This document shows, one piece after another, positions 39,633-58,170 of a DNA stretch of 62,244 nt (positions are counted from its first letter, which is position 1; every line of letters starts with the position of its first letter). The notes under the pieces are model-generated. The model saw only the letters and a list, made by a program, of their open reading frames with translations. It ran no database searches and was not told the DNA's origin. The translations under genes and the position numbers were made by a program. Source of the DNA: Erysipelotrichaceae bacterium. GTDB taxonomy: Bacteria; Bacillota_I; Bacilli_A; Erysipelotrichales; Erysipelotrichaceae. The stretch lies in NCBI GenBank assembly GCA_030694975.1, contig JAUYTU010000014.1, forward strand, positions 1 to 62,244. Reading direction: 5' to 3'.

Positions 39633-40661
39633 TTAGTTGCCCGAAACAAGTTCTTGAGCTCTGCGTGCACCGTCATAATCACTATCCGAGACGACTTTAT
39701 AGCCTTCATGGTTGTAGATTTTGATAGCTTCAGCACCAGCTGTAGTTTTAGCGATTTCGATGAAAGCTTCTTGAAGAGCGGTTTTGAAACCATCGGACAT
39801 TTCCGGGTTTTCCAATCCTACGGAAATCGTATCATTGAAGATACCTTCGGTAACGCCGATTACATCGGTTTCAACCCAGATTTCAGCTGTACGAGCCCAG
39901 TCAGTTTTCCATTGACCTTGATAGTCACGACGGATGTCAGCATAACCAACACCTACATCGCATAATCCGGTAGCCAAATTATTAGCAATTACGGAATATG
40001 AACCGGTGATTGCCGGTTTTGTCAAATCGGTCAGTTTTTTGTCAAAGTTGTCCAATAACCACATCGTCGGATAAACGTAACCAGCGGATGAGGTTGTACT
40101 GTTGGAATAACACCAAGTAGCACTGTTAACATCTTCCCAAGTCAAAGCGGTTCCGGCATTGACTTTCGCAGCAATCGTACGACCGATTTCACTTGGTCCT
40201 GCATAAATCAATGAACGGTAGTAAGTAACTTGATTAGCTGAATCACCTAATGTTTCTTTTCCGTCATTCCAGTCTTTAGCAACTTCAGAGTCTTTGTTTA
40301 AACCTGCACGAGTGGCAGCCAAAATAACTGCTACATTGTCTTCACTGTACAGAGCATATGTACCACCCGGCAAGAATCCTACATGAGCAGTACCTGCGGC
40401 TAACGCTTCGCCGGCGGCATTGTAATCTGTAGAAACTTCGATGGTAACTTCATTGACGGTGTAACCTCTGGTCAACAATGCATCAATCAGCAATTGTTTC
40501 AAAGGTTCGGTTTGCGTCAGGATCAATCCTGGATCGCGGCTGGGTACAAACACAACAATTAAATTCTCGATGGTTTTGTCTTCAGTTTCCTTCGGTGTGC
40601 AAGCAGCTGCAGCAGCGAAGACTAAAAACGCAACAAAGATAAGTTTTAAAATCTTCTTCAT
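39633..40661 (-). CDS. phnD: Phosphonate-type ABC transporter binding lipoprotein (PhnD-like)
   Basis: A 342-residue extracytoplasmic substrate-binding lipoprotein. The signal peptide ends in a lipobox with Cys21 (AAAACTPK). The periplasmic-binding fold follows in the normal order for PhnD, with FVPSRDPGLIL at the start of lobe 1 and GLCDVGVGYADIRR near the end. Ligand is not certain: PhnD homologues bind phosphonates, phosphite or phosphate esters, and no C-P lyase, phosphonatase or ptxD gene is in the window. Adjacent and divergent is a 5'-nucleotidase-like phosphatase, which may hint at an organophosphate substrate. Confidence 0.88.
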   Translation of the reverse strand: MKKILKLIFVAFLVFAAAAACTPKETEDKTIENLIVVFVPSRDPGLILTQTEPLKQLLIDALLTRGYTVNEVTIEVSTDYNAAGEALAAGTAHVGFLPGGTYALYSEDNVAVILAATRAGLNKDSEVAKDWNDGKETLGDSANQVTYYRSLIYAGPSEIGRTIAAKVNAGTALTWEDVNSATWCYSNSTTSSAGYVYPTMWLLDNFDKKLTDLTKPAITGSYSVIANNLATGLCDVGVGYADIRRDYQGQWKTDWARTAEIWVETDVIGVTEGIFNDTISVGLENPEMSDGFKTALQEAFIEIAKTTAGAEAIKIYNHEGYKVVSDSDYDGARRAQELVSGN

Positions 40662-51757: not shown

Positions 51758-52537
51758 TTAATCAAAGAAGAATGCAAAACCTAAGTCATCGAACAGTTCT
51801 TTTTCTTCTTTTAGATATTGTTCGACAATCGGTTCAAATCCCTTTTTTTCTTTGAATGTTTTCAAAAAAGCATTGAACTGTTCAACAAGCGGACTGCCTT
51901 TTTTAAATGCGGCACCCCAATATTCCGGTTGTTGATTTTCAATAAATACAGTCTTTGTTTTGTCCTGATACTGTTGAAAATTACGCACGATGGTCAATTG
52001 ATCGTAGATAAAAGCATCGGCACGACCATTGATGACTTCCGCGATCGCTGCACTTTCATCATCCAAGCGCAAAACCTTGGCGTTGGGATAGTTGTTGGTC
52101 ACGTAGAAATCACCGGTACTGCCGGTCTTGACCGCAATCGTGCGATCCGTATTGTTTAAATCTGCCGAAACAGTGACAGGACTGTCTTTATTAACTAAAA
52201 AGGCCAAATACGCTTTGGCGTAACCATCGGAAAAGTCGACACTTTCCTTGCGGACTTCTGTGATCGTCATGGATGAAATGACCAGGTCAACTTTATCCGT
52301 CTGTACGGCCGGTATCAGTCCGGTCCAATTGATGTTTTCGATAATGACTTCTTTGCCTAAGTATTCACCAAAAGCTTTTGCCAGTTCTACACTGACACCC
52401 ATCGGATTACCACTGTTGTCCTTGGTTTCAAATGGTGGGTACGCCAATTCCATTCCAACGACTAAAGCATCGGATGGACCACTCGAGCAGCCACTGATTA
52501 TCAGTAGTAATAGCATTAGTACTAAAAACTTTTTCAT
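51758..52537 (-). CDS. Amino acid ABC transporter binding lipoprotein
   Basis: A 259-residue family 3 solute-binding lipoprotein. The signal peptide ends with lipobox ISGC (Cys17). The mature part begins with VVGMELAYPPFE, typical of amino-acid binders. SSMTITEVRKE (the conserved Arg that grips the alpha-carboxylate), GSTGDFY and DAFIYDQ follow in the normal order. It heads a three-gene operon. The ligand is not predicted with certainty. Confidence 0.93.
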   Translation of the reverse strand: MKKFLVLMLLLLIISGCSSGPSDALVVGMELAYPPFETKDNSGNPMGVSVELAKAFGEYLGKEVIIENINWTGLIPAVQTDKVDLVISSMTITEVRKESVDFSDGYAKAYLAFLVNKDSPVTVSADLNNTDRTIAVKTGSTGDFYVTNNYPNAKVLRLDDESAAIAEVINGRADAFIYDQLTIVRNFQQYQDKTKTVFIENQQPEYWGAAFKKGSPLVEQFNAFLKTFKEKKGFEPIVEQYLKEEKELFDDLGFAFFFD

Positions 52538-53189: not shown

Positions 53190-53996
53190 CTATTCCCCCA
53201 TCTGAAGCTGTTCAAATATCGAATCGACCGCCTTAGCTAATCCGGTATATTCCAAATGATCAAACTCACCTGAATCAGCTGCTTGAGTAATCTTGGCAAC
53301 AATCGGCAGTTTAGCCAATACCTTAATTCCATGTTTTAGGGCGAATTCTTCGATGCGTCCCTCACCAAAAGGATAAATTCGTTCATTGCAACACGGACAT
53401 TCCATGTAGCTCATATTTTCGATGATACCCAAAATCGGAACATTCATCTGATGGGCCATATCGATGGCTTTGGACACGATCATCGACACCAAATCTTGAG
53501 GTGTTGTAACCAAGACGATACCGTCGATCGGCAGTGACTGATAAATCGTCAGCGGTACATCCCCGGTGCCTGGTGGCATATCGATATACAATACATCCAA
53601 ATCTCCCCACAGCACTTTTGAATAGAAATCTTTAACTGCTCCATTGATCAGCAGTCCTCGCCACATTACGGCTTTGTCTTCTTCATCCAATAACATATTG
53701 GAGGTAATAATCTTAATCTCACGGCTGGTTAGTGCCGGATAGATCAATCCGTCTTCGGTACCGTACGCCCGATCGGTTATGCCAAACATTTTACCAATCG
53801 AAGGTCCGGTGATGTCCGCATCTAAAATCCCGGTGAAATAGCCTTTTTCACTCGTATTGACGGCGAGCAAGCCTGTAACGGAAGACTTTCCTACCCCGCC
53901 TTTACCACTGACCACCGCAACAACGTTTCGTACATTGCTTTGCTTATTCATTTTCACTTTGAACGGATCAAAGCGTGGATCTTTTTCTTTACTCAT
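53190..53996 (-). CDS. Mrp/NBP35-family iron-sulfur carrier ATPase
   Basis: A 268-residue P-loop protein that delivers iron-sulfur clusters to apoproteins. The deviant Walker A VVSGKGGVGKSS is near residue 30, switch motifs DADITGPSIG and DMPPGTGD follow, and the cluster-binding CxxC is in ECPCCNE. It lacks the N-terminal DUF59 domain of longer Mrp proteins. The start at 53996 follows AAAGAGAGAAAACC. Two related palindromes lie upstream. Confidence 0.92.
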   Translation of the reverse strand: MSKEKDPRFDPFKVKMNKQSNVRNVVAVVSGKGGVGKSSVTGLLAVNTSEKGYFTGILDADITGPSIGKMFGITDRAYGTEDGLIYPALTSREIKIITSNMLLDEEDKAVMWRGLLINGAVKDFYSKVLWGDLDVLYIDMPPGTGDVPLTIYQSLPIDGIVLVTTPQDLVSMIVSKAIDMAHQMNVPILGIIENMSYMECPCCNERIYPFGEGRIEEFALKHGIKVLAKLPIVAKITQAADSGEFDHLEYTGLAKAVDSIFEQLQMGE

Positions 53997-54059
53997 TGGT
54001 TTTCTCTCTTTCTTACATGATTGACTCAACACTTTTCACAGTGCTCGCTAAAAGCGACG

Positions 54060-54132
54060 TTGTGACCGTCACAAACGACAATAACCGGACGATTGCGCAC
54101 GTATACCATTTTTGCCTTTGTGCTCGTCACAA
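54060..54132. repeat. Two near-identical 15-bp palindromes upstream of mrp
   Basis: TTGTGACCGTCACAA (54060-54074, perfect palindrome around the central C) and TTGTGCTCGTCACAA (54118-54132) differ at two positions and lie 58 bases apart in the mrp-pstB intergenic region. An additional inverted repeat CTCAC-GGCGCT-GTGAG begins at 54139. Paired operators for an unknown regulator are likely. No coding frame is seen in 53997-54183. Confidence 0.5.
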
Positions 54133-54183
54133 CCTAGCTCACGGCGCTGTGAGTGAAGTGTACATAAGTACAGTTACTATCAT

Positions 54184-54210
54184 AAAAAAGACTTGACCAT
54201 AAGTCAAGTC
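54184..54210 (-). terminator. Terminator of the pst operon
   Basis: Arms GACTTGAC (54190-54197) and GTCAAGTC (54203-54210), loop CATAA, then six T on the minus strand. Confidence 0.88.
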
Positions 54211-54216
54211 AAGCAA

Positions 54217-54972
54217 TTATCCGAAACGACCGGTGATGTAGTCTTCTGTGCGCTTATCTCTAGGATTAGCGAATATCTCCGATGTCTGACCAAATTCAAT
54301 GATTTCTCCCAATAAGAAGAATGCGGTATTGTCCGATATGCGTGCAGCCTGTTGCATGGAGTGAGTGACGATAACTATGGTGTAATCCTTTTTCAATTCT
54401 TCAATCAATTCTTCAATCCGTTGTGTTGCCATCGGATCAAGAGCCGAGGTGGGTTCATCCATCAACAACACTTCCGGTTCCATGGCGAGTGCACGGGCAA
54501 TACAAAGACGTTGCTGTTGTCCACCGCTTAAACGGGTAGCTGATTCGGTCATACGATCTTTAACTTCGTTGTACAAGGCTGCTTGCTTGAGGGCTTTTTC
54601 CACGATACCTTTTAACGTCGCCTTGTCTTTGATTCCTTGCTGACGCGGACCGTAGGCAACATTATCAAATATACTCATTGGAAAGGGATTGGGTTTTTGA
54701 AAGACCATACCCACTTTTTTTCTTAATTCAATAACATCAACTCCGACACCTTGGACCGGTTCTCCGTTAAAACGAATGATTCCATCCACTTTAACATTGT
54801 CGATCAAATCGTTCATACGATTTAGACAACGTAAGAACGTACTTTTTCCGCAGCCGGAGGGACCGATTAATGCTGTGACTTTATTTCGATAAATTGGCAA
54901 GTTTACATTTGACAAGGCATTAAAATCGCCATAGTTCAAACTCAATTCTTGCGTTTCAATTACTTTTTCCAT
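54217..54972 (-). CDS. pstB: Phosphate ABC transporter ATPase PstB
   Basis: A 251-residue ATPase of the high-affinity phosphate importer. Walker [10 protein letters not shown], signature LSGGQQQR, Walker [12 protein letters not shown] and the PstB-specific [15 protein letters not shown] are present. It is the last gene of pstSCAB, two bases after pstA. No phoU follows, which is unusual for a complete pst operon. Confidence 0.97.
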
Positions 54973-54974
54973 AA

Positions 54975-56186
54975 TTACATCCCTTTCCTAGTGAGCAGCT
55001 TCACACCGATTTTAACAGACAGATTGATCACGAGTACAATGGCTAAAATCAAGATAGCGATCGTACTGGATAATGCGATATTCGCCGGTTCATCGGTCAT
55101 CATTGACCAAATATGTACAGCTAATGACGTCGATGGCTCGTATATATTGACGGTATCCTTAATGGCTGCACCCAATACAAAGATTAGCGCTGCTGATTCT
55201 CCGATGACCCGTCCGATTCCTAAAAATGTGGCGGTAATGATACCGGGGCTTGCCTGAGGTAAAACGACTTTAAAGGTCGTTTGGGTCTTGTTTGCACCTA
55301 AGGCCAAGGATGCTGCCCGGTGATCATCGGGAACTACACGCAAGGATTCTTCGGTTGTACGGATAATGGTTGGCAAGATGATAACCGAGAGTGTCAGTGC
55401 ACCGGCAATCAGATTGGAGTTGACCGCAGGAGTGAAGCGAACGGTTAGTGGCACAAACACGGTGATACCAAGCAATCCGTAAATAATGGATGGAACTCCG
55501 GTCAATGTCTCAATGAAGCTTCTCATGGTTTTTGTAATCCAGTTGCTTGGGGCAAATTCGTTAAAATATATGGCTGTCAATACACCAAAGGGTACTGCAA
55601 TGATGAGTGTCATAAATATCAGATAGATGGTGGTGATGATTGATCCCTTAATACCGCCGCCTAAGTCTGAGAAGAAAAGTTCGTAAACTTCGCGTTGCGG
55701 ATCGCTGAGTTCTGTGGCAAATTTCTGTGCACCGCCTCTTGAAAGTGATGTCGGATGATTCACATAGGATATCCGTTGGAAAATCATTCCTACATCTAAA
55801 TCTACCTCTTCTGTACCGACTTCTTTACTAATCATTTTATTAAACGGCGAATCCGGGTGGACGTAATAAACTCGCACGACCCCATTACCCGCCAAATCAA
55901 TATCTTCTTGCAATACGATGCCGAATCGATCGACGGGATATACATTTTCGACCTTAGACAAGTCAGGCATATCATAATTTTGTAACTGCTCGTCTTGAAA
56001 TTCTGCGATATAATTGCGTGAGTGATAATTGCCGGTAAACAACTCCCAATTAAGCAAAGTTGTACCTTCTCTGATAACATAGAAAAATATGAGTCCTAAG
56101 GCCAGTGCTGACAATGTCGTAGACAGAAAAACAGAACTGTTGAGTAAGATTTCGCTCAATCTGACTTTTCTTTTAACCATGGACAT
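54975..56186 (-). CDS. pstA: Phosphate ABC transporter permease PstA, with long extracytoplasmic insertion
   Basis: The second permease of the phosphate importer. At 403 residues it is about 110 longer than usual. Helix 1 (about 15-38) is followed by an extra, largely polar segment (about 50-165, containing [15 protein letters not shown] and [13 protein letters not shown]). The canonical remainder starts at [14 protein letters not shown] and includes the EAA loop. The orientation puts the insert outside the membrane, where PstS docks. It overlaps pstC by 14 bases. The start could be either of two ATGs six bases apart. Confidence 0.93.
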
Positions 56187-57105
56187 TCCCTACTTTCCTT
56201 TTAATGAAATTCAATCCCAGATTGGTGGTTAAAATAACGACCATCAATAAGATACCCAAGGAAAAACGAATATCATAATCGATACCATTGGTTTCCTTTA
56301 ATCCTTGCAATAAAGTTGAAGTAATGGTTGCGGTTGTTTCAAACAAACCGAATGAAGGTCCGCTGCGTGCATTACCGGAAACCAGTGCTACCGCAGTCGC
56401 CTCTCCCAGAGATCGTCCGACCGCTAAAATAGCTCCGGAGAATATCCCGGATTTAGCAGCGAGCAAGGTGATCTTAAATCGCGTTTGCGTTGGCGAAGCT
56501 CCCAATGCCAACGATGCCTGCTCTAAGCTTTCATCGACCTGACGAATAGAAACTTCGGCTACAGCTGTTATCGTCGGTATGCTCATTAGTGAAAGAACAA
56601 AAACCGTAGCAATTACACTACTGCCACCGCCACTGGAATATCCCATGGAGCGAGCAATTCCATAAATGACCGGCAGAAATAGACCGACACCCACTAAACC
56701 AAATACGATGGATGGGATGGAGGCAAGCAGTTCGATGATGGTTCTCATGGTCGCTGCGATTGGACGCGGTGCAACTTTCGCAATGAAAAGCGCTGTTAAA
56801 ACCCCAATGGGAAAAGACATTAGGACGGTTAAAAATGCAATGTATAATGTGTTGATAATGACAAAACCGGCTCCGTAGGCTGTTGAAAGGAAGGTCGTTC
56901 CTCTTAACCATACGGTGTCCGTTAGAAATTGAAGGACATTAACCGATCCCAATCCATTGTTATCGGTTATAAATGGCAGTATTCCACGTATTGTAATGAA
57001 AGCTGCAATGATGACAATGAAACTTGAAGCAACCAATGCCAATATCATCAATAAGCTGCCTACTATCGTGTCAATCTGACTTAGACTAGTTCTTGTTCCT
57101 TTCAT
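56173..57105 (-). CDS. pstC: Phosphate ABC transporter permease PstC
   Basis: The first permease of the phosphate importer, 310 residues, six helices. Segments IELLASIPSIVFGLVG and ASLALGASPTQTRFKITL (EAA loop) are typical of PstC. GGAGGTACT precedes the ATG. A hairpin separates it from pstS. Confidence 0.95.
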   Translation of the reverse strand: MKGTRTSLSQIDTIVGSLLMILALVASSFIVIIAAFITIRGILPFITDNNGLGSVNVLQFLTDTVWLRGTTFLSTAYGAGFVIINTLYIAFLTVLMSFPIGVLTALFIAKVAPRPIAATMRTIIELLASIPSIVFGLVGVGLFLPVIYGIARSMGYSSGGGSSVIATVFVLSLMSIPTITAVAEVSIRQVDESLEQASLALGASPTQTRFKITLLAAKSGIFSGAILAVGRSLGEATAVALVSGNARSGPSFGLFETTATITSTLLQGLKETNGIDYDIRFSLGILLMVVILTTNLGLNFIKRKVGNVHG

Positions 57106-57120
57106 AGTACCTCCTATAAA

Positions 57121-57147
57121 TCGAAAAGGCCCTTTTTCAAGGGCCTT
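57121..57147 (-). terminator. Intra-operon terminator between pstS and pstC
   Basis: Arms AAGGCCC (57126-57132) and GGGCCTT (57141-57147), then TTTTC on the minus strand. Probably partial, keeping pstS mRNA above that of the membrane genes. Confidence 0.75.
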
Positions 57148-57160
57148 AACTCAATCTGTT

Positions 57161-58093
57161 TTAGTCAGTTATGACATCGCCCCAGAGTGTGTATTCGCCT
57201 TTATAAATCTTCGTTAATTGTTCGCCGGTCAAATCGGTAACTGGGTTGTCTTTATGGACGATTGCAACGATTGCATCCCAAGCCATTTGCGTACGGGTAG
57301 TTTCCGGACCGCTTAATTCAGCATCGCGGAAGAAACGTGAGGAGTAACCGATGTGCTTGTAGTTAACGCCATCTTTTTCGCCGCCTTGAACACGTTTGAA
57401 TCCATCGCTAGAACCCGTGTGGTCATTTTCCGTTTTCACGTTTCCGCAAGCCGGAGAGAATGCTGCTGATAAAGCTTCTGCGATTTTCTGTACGGAATCA
57501 GATCCGCCGAATTTTAAGGTAACTGCGCTGTTATCCGATGCACATACCGGGAAATTAGCAACTTGAGATGCCCAAGTACCTGTGCCGGCAGTAGCTGTAG
57601 CGCCTGCATTTGCAATAACGTCAGCACCGTCATTCGATGCAACGTAAGCAATGAATGCCAGAGTCAGTTGGTATTCTGTATCATTGACATAATCACCGTC
57701 AACACGTCTCATAAATACGAATGGACGTTTCAATTTATATGTATCGTTCAATACGTTTGCTTCGTTTGCTTCAACACCTTCAAATTTTAGAGCTTTGATT
57801 GTGTTATTGACTGAAGACAGAGAAACATAACCGACACCTGATTTATCGGTAGCCATTGCTGACATAATAGCATTGTTGTCAGCTGTGATAAATCCAGCAA
57901 CTAAAACGGAATCATCGGCAGATGCATCCGCAAATCCAATCCCTCTCATAAATCCATCACGTGTTCCTGAGGATGTATCACGTGTATATACGTTAATTTT
58001 TTCTGCTTCAAATCCTGGTTCTTCTACGGGTGCGCTGCAAGCAGCTAATGTAAGCATGAGAATCATGCTAAATAACAAGACGATCTTTTTCAT
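57161..58093 (-). CDS. pstS: Phosphate-binding lipoprotein PstS with circularly permuted-looking domain order
   Basis: A 310-residue phosphate-binding lipoprotein with lipobox LAAC (Cys19), first gene of the pst operon. The order of recognisable parts is unusual. The segment YTRDTSSGTRDGF (36-48), GVGYVSLSSV (86-95) and KRPFVFM (122-128) belong to the second half of a normal PstS. GGSDSVQKIAEALSAAF (196-212), TGSSDGF (226-232), IGYSSR (248-253) and DAIVAIVHKDNPVTDLT (273-289) belong to the first half, yet come last. The chain ends at YTLWGDVITD, exactly where a normal PstS would run into the R..GSGTR segment. The signal peptide, ribosome site (AAGGAGG) and frame are intact, so this is not a broken gene. 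Confidence 0.93.
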   Translation of the reverse strand: MKKIVLLFSMILMLTLAACSAPVEEPGFEAEKINVYTRDTSSGTRDGFMRGIGFADASADDSVLVAGFITADNNAIMSAMATDKSGVGYVSLSSVNNTIKALKFEGVEANEANVLNDTYKLKRPFVFMRRVDGDYVNDTEYQLTLAFIAYVASNDGADVIANAGATATAGTGTWASQVANFPVCASDNSAVTLKFGGSDSVQKIAEALSAAFSPACGNVKTENDHTGSSDGFKRVQGGEKDGVNYKHIGYSSRFFRDAELSGPETTRTQMAWDAIVAIVHKDNPVTDLTGEQLTKIYKGEYTLWGDVITD

Positions 58094-58153: not shown

Positions 58154-58170
58154 TGTTAAGAAAATGTTAA
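58154..58170 (-). promoter_or_regulatory. Tandem PhoP box upstream of pstS
   Basis: TTAACA, five bases, TTAACA on the minus strand: two perfect copies of the Gram-positive PhoP repeat with the correct 11-base period, centred near -52. The phoPR genes are not in the window. Confidence 0.85.

Follow-up and report, generated by a model that had tools for sequence, protein, structure and literature searches.

A circularly permuted PstS-like receptor gene at the head of a pst operon in an Erysipelotrichaceae bacterium, and its tandem and re-cut relatives

The pst operon

The window, by which we mean the whole stretch of 62,244 nucleotides that we analysed, carries a pst operon on its minus strand in the order pstS-pstC-pstA-pstB, with a permuted pstS as the first gene. 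The features of the locus, from 5' to 3' on that strand, are the following.

58154..58170 (-): PhoP-box-like direct repeat TTAACA-N5-TTAACA, conserved in relatives
57161..58093 (-): permuted pstS-like gene for a 310-aa lipoprotein, from the ORF, a swapped two-block PstS match and a rotation scan
58037..58093 (-): signal peptide and lipidated Cys19 (LAAC lipobox), from the translation
57608..58000 (-): N-terminal block, residues 32-162, corresponding to the C-terminal half of canonical PstS, from PDB alignments
57524..57607 (-): linker (residues 163-190) that connects the natural C terminus to the natural N terminus, absent from canonical PstS
57170..57523 (-): C-terminal block, residues 191-308, corresponding to the N-terminal half of canonical PstS, from PDB alignments
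57126..57147 (-): strong terminator-like hairpin in the pstS-pstC spacer, 9-pair stem, RNA fold z = -4.6
56173..57105 (-): pstC permease, TIGR02138 over cut-off
54975..56186 (-): pstA permease, 403 aa, TIGR00974 over cut-off with an alignment that starts at residue 174
54217..54972 (-): pstB ATPase, TIGR00972 over cut-off

PstC, PstA and PstB all score above their NCBIfam cut-offs, and this PstA is the sole one above the cut-off in the source genome. The direct repeat sits 61-77 bases 5' of the pstS start codon, and the same repeat with the same spacing is present upstream of pstS in 8 of the 8 close named relatives that we checked (L004-L011). A preliminary description, made from the letters of the DNA, had called the signal peptide, lipobox, operon position and PhoP box normal. 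We agree that this is an ordinary PhoP-boxed pstSCAB operon, with the exception of PstA, which is long. The hairpin between pstS and pstC would favour production of more receptor than permease.

There is no phoU 3' of pstB in the window, where the next gene (53190-54216) encodes an Mrp-like ATPase. On contig C37 of the source genome there is a second PstS-like lipoprotein gene (L124:7326-8264, minus strand), which has the canonical order. It has no adjoining permease genes, and the lipoprotein genes on its two sides are similar to each other.

The two halves of PstS in swapped order

The ORF, the LAAC lipobox and the swapped order of PstS motifs can be read from the translation as the preliminary description had them, with INVYTRDTSSGTR beginning 14 residues past Cys19 and the chain ending in WGDVITD. 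The N-terminal block contains the R-x-x-SSGTR phosphate loop, GYVSLSS and KRPF, and aligns with 4q8r 119-239 and 4gd5 152-272. The C-terminal block contains GGSDS, TGSS, SSR, WDAIVAIVHKDNP and LWGDV, and aligns with 4q8r 5-112 and 4gd5 35-145. The blocks had been placed at residues 36-128 and 196-310; the swap stands, and we refine the limits to 32-162 and 190-307. The linker between them is about 25 residues long here and 14-35 residues among permuted relatives.

Homology to the PstS profiles PF12849 and TIGR02136 covers both halves of the protein in two significant stretches. The half matches come in reversed order, as had been claimed, with Pfam PF12849, NCBIfam TIGR02136 and PDB chains 4q8r, 4gd5 and 1twy (E 4e-27 and 2.9e-27 for PDB PstS chains), and PF12849 matches the pstS DNA twice, with model positions 126-266 first and 8-132 second. 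We take 4gd5 and 4q8r to be the C. perfringens protein and 1twy that of V. cholerae. In these canonical proteins both halves are homologous to ours and the phosphate-loop residues are kept, but the halves are oppositely ordered. Pfam reports PBP_like_2 and a sub-threshold PBP_like, and the Pfam search found no sugar-binding family match; the informative NCBIfam matches are phosphate-binding models. The TIGR02136 score of 139.8 bits is below the curated cut-off of 206.6, which is expected for a permuted member, and formally the protein is a permuted homologue and not a member of TIGR02136.

We aligned 54 permuted sequences that span about 28 to 94% identity. Cys19 is invariant (54/54), and so are R38, S42, G43, R45, G197, S198, S228, S252, R253 and D273. 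As in PstS generally, R38, S42, G43, R45, S198, S228, R253 and D273 presumably contact phosphate.

Rotation test

From 21 canonical PstS proteins we built an HMM of 245 positions, and with it we scored the mature protein at every fifth rotation. The best single alignment of the native sequence had 89.6 bits and covered model positions 114-241 only. Rotations that restart in the linker, at residues 170-190, had 169.5 bits in one match over model positions 5-241 of 245. A better collinear match of the whole protein to ordinary PstS would have spoken against a permutation, and it is the rotated chain that scores higher. Shuffled-sequence controls reached at most 1.6 bits, and a canonical control was best unrotated, at 398 bits. 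The solved structure 4h1x behaved like the window protein, with 120 bits native and 242 rotated. Two other binding proteins of the window, PhnD-like (39633-40661) and GlnH-like (51758-52537), had been described as not permuted, and each gave a single collinear Pfam match.

AlphaFold models of the window PstS were too poor to use (mean pLDDT 34.5 from the single sequence and 40.2 from 10 sequences). Scans of viral contigs for further sequences supplied a single usable relative. In Foldseek, 4h1x was the top match and the only one below 0.001; its TM of about 0.2 means that it rests on sequence, and we do not treat it as evidence of a shared fold.

Spread of the permuted order

The window PstS appears to belong to a large permuted group and is not a one-off. 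Full-length permuted copies, 76-95% identical, are present in 8 named Erysipelotrichia-type assemblies, and a ninth named assembly has a copy that is cut by a contig end. Counting by hand from a match table, whose query favours permuted forms, we found a permuted PstS (single collinear match) in about 89 of the 296 sampled genomes of the class and a canonical one (two swapped half matches) in about 20. Beyond the class, we found permuted PstS in S. pneumoniae (PstS2, 4h1x), Monoglobus pectinilyticus and Treponema saccharophilum, and in the latter two the gene lies immediately 5' of pstC-pstA-pstB-phoU. The permuted proteins that we examined share one cut loop, apart from a re-cut receptor described below. 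The cut is between WxxV and the SGTR strand in both the window PstS and the 4h1x group; in canonical PstS the halves are 4-7 residues apart at this loop.

The permuted singles that we tested score below the TIGR02136 cut-off. On two annotated plasmids, permuted receptors in pst operons (L120, L121) are named just "substrate-binding domain-containing protein". With such scores and such vague annotation, surveys of phosphate uptake may miss permuted PstS.

In one genome a pair of permuted pstS genes stands in tandem as separate genes (L078: 2997-3902 and 4011-5015, minus strand). Permuted pstS genes also occur on two IMG/VR "viral" contigs (L092, L093), which may be host sequence or the edge of a provirus.

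The same order in S. pneumoniae PstS2

The S. pneumoniae PstS2 structure (PDB 4h1x, SP_2084), deposited in 2012, has the order and the cut point of the window PstS, and the two are collinear over 32-306 (E 1.5e-16). Against TIGR02136, 4h1x also matches in two stretches, the best of which pairs its C-terminal half with the first half of the profile. It belongs to a different clade from the window PstS, and no sampled sequence exceeds 50% identity to it, the nearest being L091. Its linker, at 16 residues, is shorter, and PstA is short in the sampled neighbours of its clade, unlike in the window. We assume from the shared name that the PstS2 of pneumococcal Pst2 is the 4h1x protein. Published work on pneumococcal Pst2 treats it as a phosphate transporter with constitutive expression (PMC4913102). 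In the open literature we found no paper on a permuted PstS or naming the permutation of 4h1x; most subscription papers lie outside this search.

Long PstA

The window PstA carries about 110 extra residues, at about residues 45-170, after its first hydrophobic segment and ahead of the conserved domain. In the window's clade and in an f13-centred clade, every permuted receptor with a readable PstA, fused receptors included, goes with a long PstA; PstA is short beside canonical receptors and in the 4h1x-like clade. Three PstA open frames, those of L121, L122 and L026, look long only through beginning upstream of the likely start. The long PstA is the only correlated change that we found with the permuted receptor. 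Since it amounts to a single change on the tree, the association is suggestive; co-evolution of the PstA insertion and the permutation was considered and set aside, as it lacks statistical support.

Tandem fusions and a third register

In 6 sampled genomes (L072-L077) several permuted units are joined in one reading frame.

L072:3068-4933: tandem double, 622 codons
L073:2756-4708: tandem double, 651 codons
L074:2952-4730: tandem double, 593 codons
L075:3006-4934: tandem double, 643 codons
L076:2740-4773: tandem double, 678 codons
L077:3281-6010: tandem triple, 910 codons

Each of these loci carries a long pstA, and the L074 double comes from a single-contig genome (G186). In a tree of 66 sequences the units of each fusion are each other's closest relatives. 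DNA identity between units runs from 81% (L073) to 99.7% (L072), so some fusions are old and some are recent or homogenised. Writing A for the canonical N-terminal half and B for the C-terminal half, the A-to-B gap between fused units is 7-8 residues in the doubles and 14 and 19 in the triple. This is near the canonical gap, so each array holds a canonical A-B unit besides its permuted B-A units, and the boundary between units is readable in either of two registers.

A seventh double (L144, G556:C1:6500-12500) is in a single-contig genome of a sister species in the genus of L072. Its first unit has a frame break, which may be a sequencing error or decay.

The third register is found in genome G234, in a PstS lipoprotein of 315 codons with an intact lipobox and pstC as the next gene (L089, 2846-3790, minus strand). 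Its layout is the last helix region of B, then A, then the first 100 residues of B. In the congener G186, it matches best over 39-313, across the unit junction of the L074 double. We read L089, which comes from one draft genome, as the remainder expected from trimming a tandem double.

Taken with the scheme of permutation by duplication (reviewed in PMC3320104), the fusions and the third-register receptor look like steps of that process. All of the tandem fusions are made of already permuted units, which places the process within the family and does not by itself explain the first permutation. It is about evenly balanced, in our judgement, whether the class evolves the chain order of its phosphate receptor by duplication and trimming, with the multi-unit forms giving each lipid anchor several phosphate sites beside an enlarged PstA.

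A probable permuted phosphate receptor

We consider it highly probable that the gene encodes a circularly permuted phosphate receptor of the pstSCAB importer, whose order most likely came from tandem duplication followed by trimming. For this reading the sequence itself provides the block order, the cut point common to relatives, the lipobox, the operon and an intact set of conserved phosphate-loop residues. The chain is cut in the loop between the end of the WxxV helix and the (V/I)xxYTRDTSSGTR strand, with the old C and N termini joined through the linker. The protein would still form the usual two-lobe clamp, close on phosphate with the same residues and hand it to PstC/PstA. Chain start and chain end would both fall in the lobe bearing the SSGTR loop. 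The lipid anchor, about 14 residues ahead of the phosphate-loop strand, would then tether the lobe with the cut and not the lobe with the usual termini, and from this topology we predict a changed position of the anchor with respect to PstCA.

Origin and alternative explanations

For the tree we put the halves of the 66 sequences in one order (254 columns). The permuted proteins fall in three clades, namely the window's, the f13-centred one and one with 4h1x, Monoglobus and Treponema. The free tree requires at least 2 changes of order, as would follow from 2 or more separate permutations at the same loop, with the caveat that the tree is unrooted, thus silent on direction, and has long branches and few columns. 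A single permutation, with the canonical order regained in some lines, is nonetheless a serious possibility: forcing one permuted clade costs 7.1 log units (AU p = 0.29) and is not rejected, the cut is common to all three clades, and L089 is an existing case of a re-cut toward the canonical order.

On duplication and trimming, the doubles, the triple and the re-cut receptor would be the expected forms. The halves of PstS could instead have been split into separate genes and rejoined in reverse, which would give the same end product, and the linker of about 25 residues could be a fusion scar. We think this unlikely, as we did not notice free-standing half genes in our surveys, while the doubles, triple and re-cut form did turn up.

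We think it considerably less likely still that the protein is a permuted PstS-type receptor for a ligand other than phosphate, such as another oxyanion. PF12849 is a broad superfamily and would accommodate one. Against this, the partners PstC, PstA and PstB are over their cut-offs, there is a PhoP-type box upstream, the phosphate-loop residues are invariant, and the collinear relative 4h1x was deposited as a phosphate-binding protein.

Finally, although the source genome is a 42-contig draft, we discount almost entirely a sequencing or assembly artefact, and we rejected misassembly, because the 8 independent named assemblies and many more distant ones, single-contig genomes included, share the order, as does a solved structure.

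Comparison with other binding proteins

Permutation of this kind has precedents, both in a solved structure with the same order and in other binding proteins described as permuted; what is more novel is the set of tandem and re-cut relatives. TpMglB-2 (Tp0684) of Treponema pallidum is a permuted lipid-anchored glucose-binding protein of "Type Ic", a type also found in Gram-positive gut bacteria; it binds ligand and changes conformation despite the permutation, and tethering was raised as a possible reason for it (PMC4990184). Like the window PstS it is a permuted lipid-anchored binding protein of an ABC importer, and the reasoning about tethering can, by analogy, be applied to a permuted PstS. 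The two differ in binding-protein class and in the cut, as in TpMglB-2 the first three N-lobe strands have moved to the C terminus. The window PstS, having no MglB-type sugar-binding match, falls outside Type Ic.

The tandem substrate-binding domains of GlnPQ resemble the PstS doubles and triple in having several binding domains per chain. They differ in being linked to the transmembrane subunit and specific for amino acids, and the abstract does not mention permutation (PMC8025302).

It is uncommon for a whole, widely spread transporter receptor to be circularly permuted. With the singles, doubles, triple and re-cut form, the model of permutation by duplication can be tested within one natural family, and natural variants are at hand for asking if lobe connectivity or anchor placement matters for delivery to an ABC importer.
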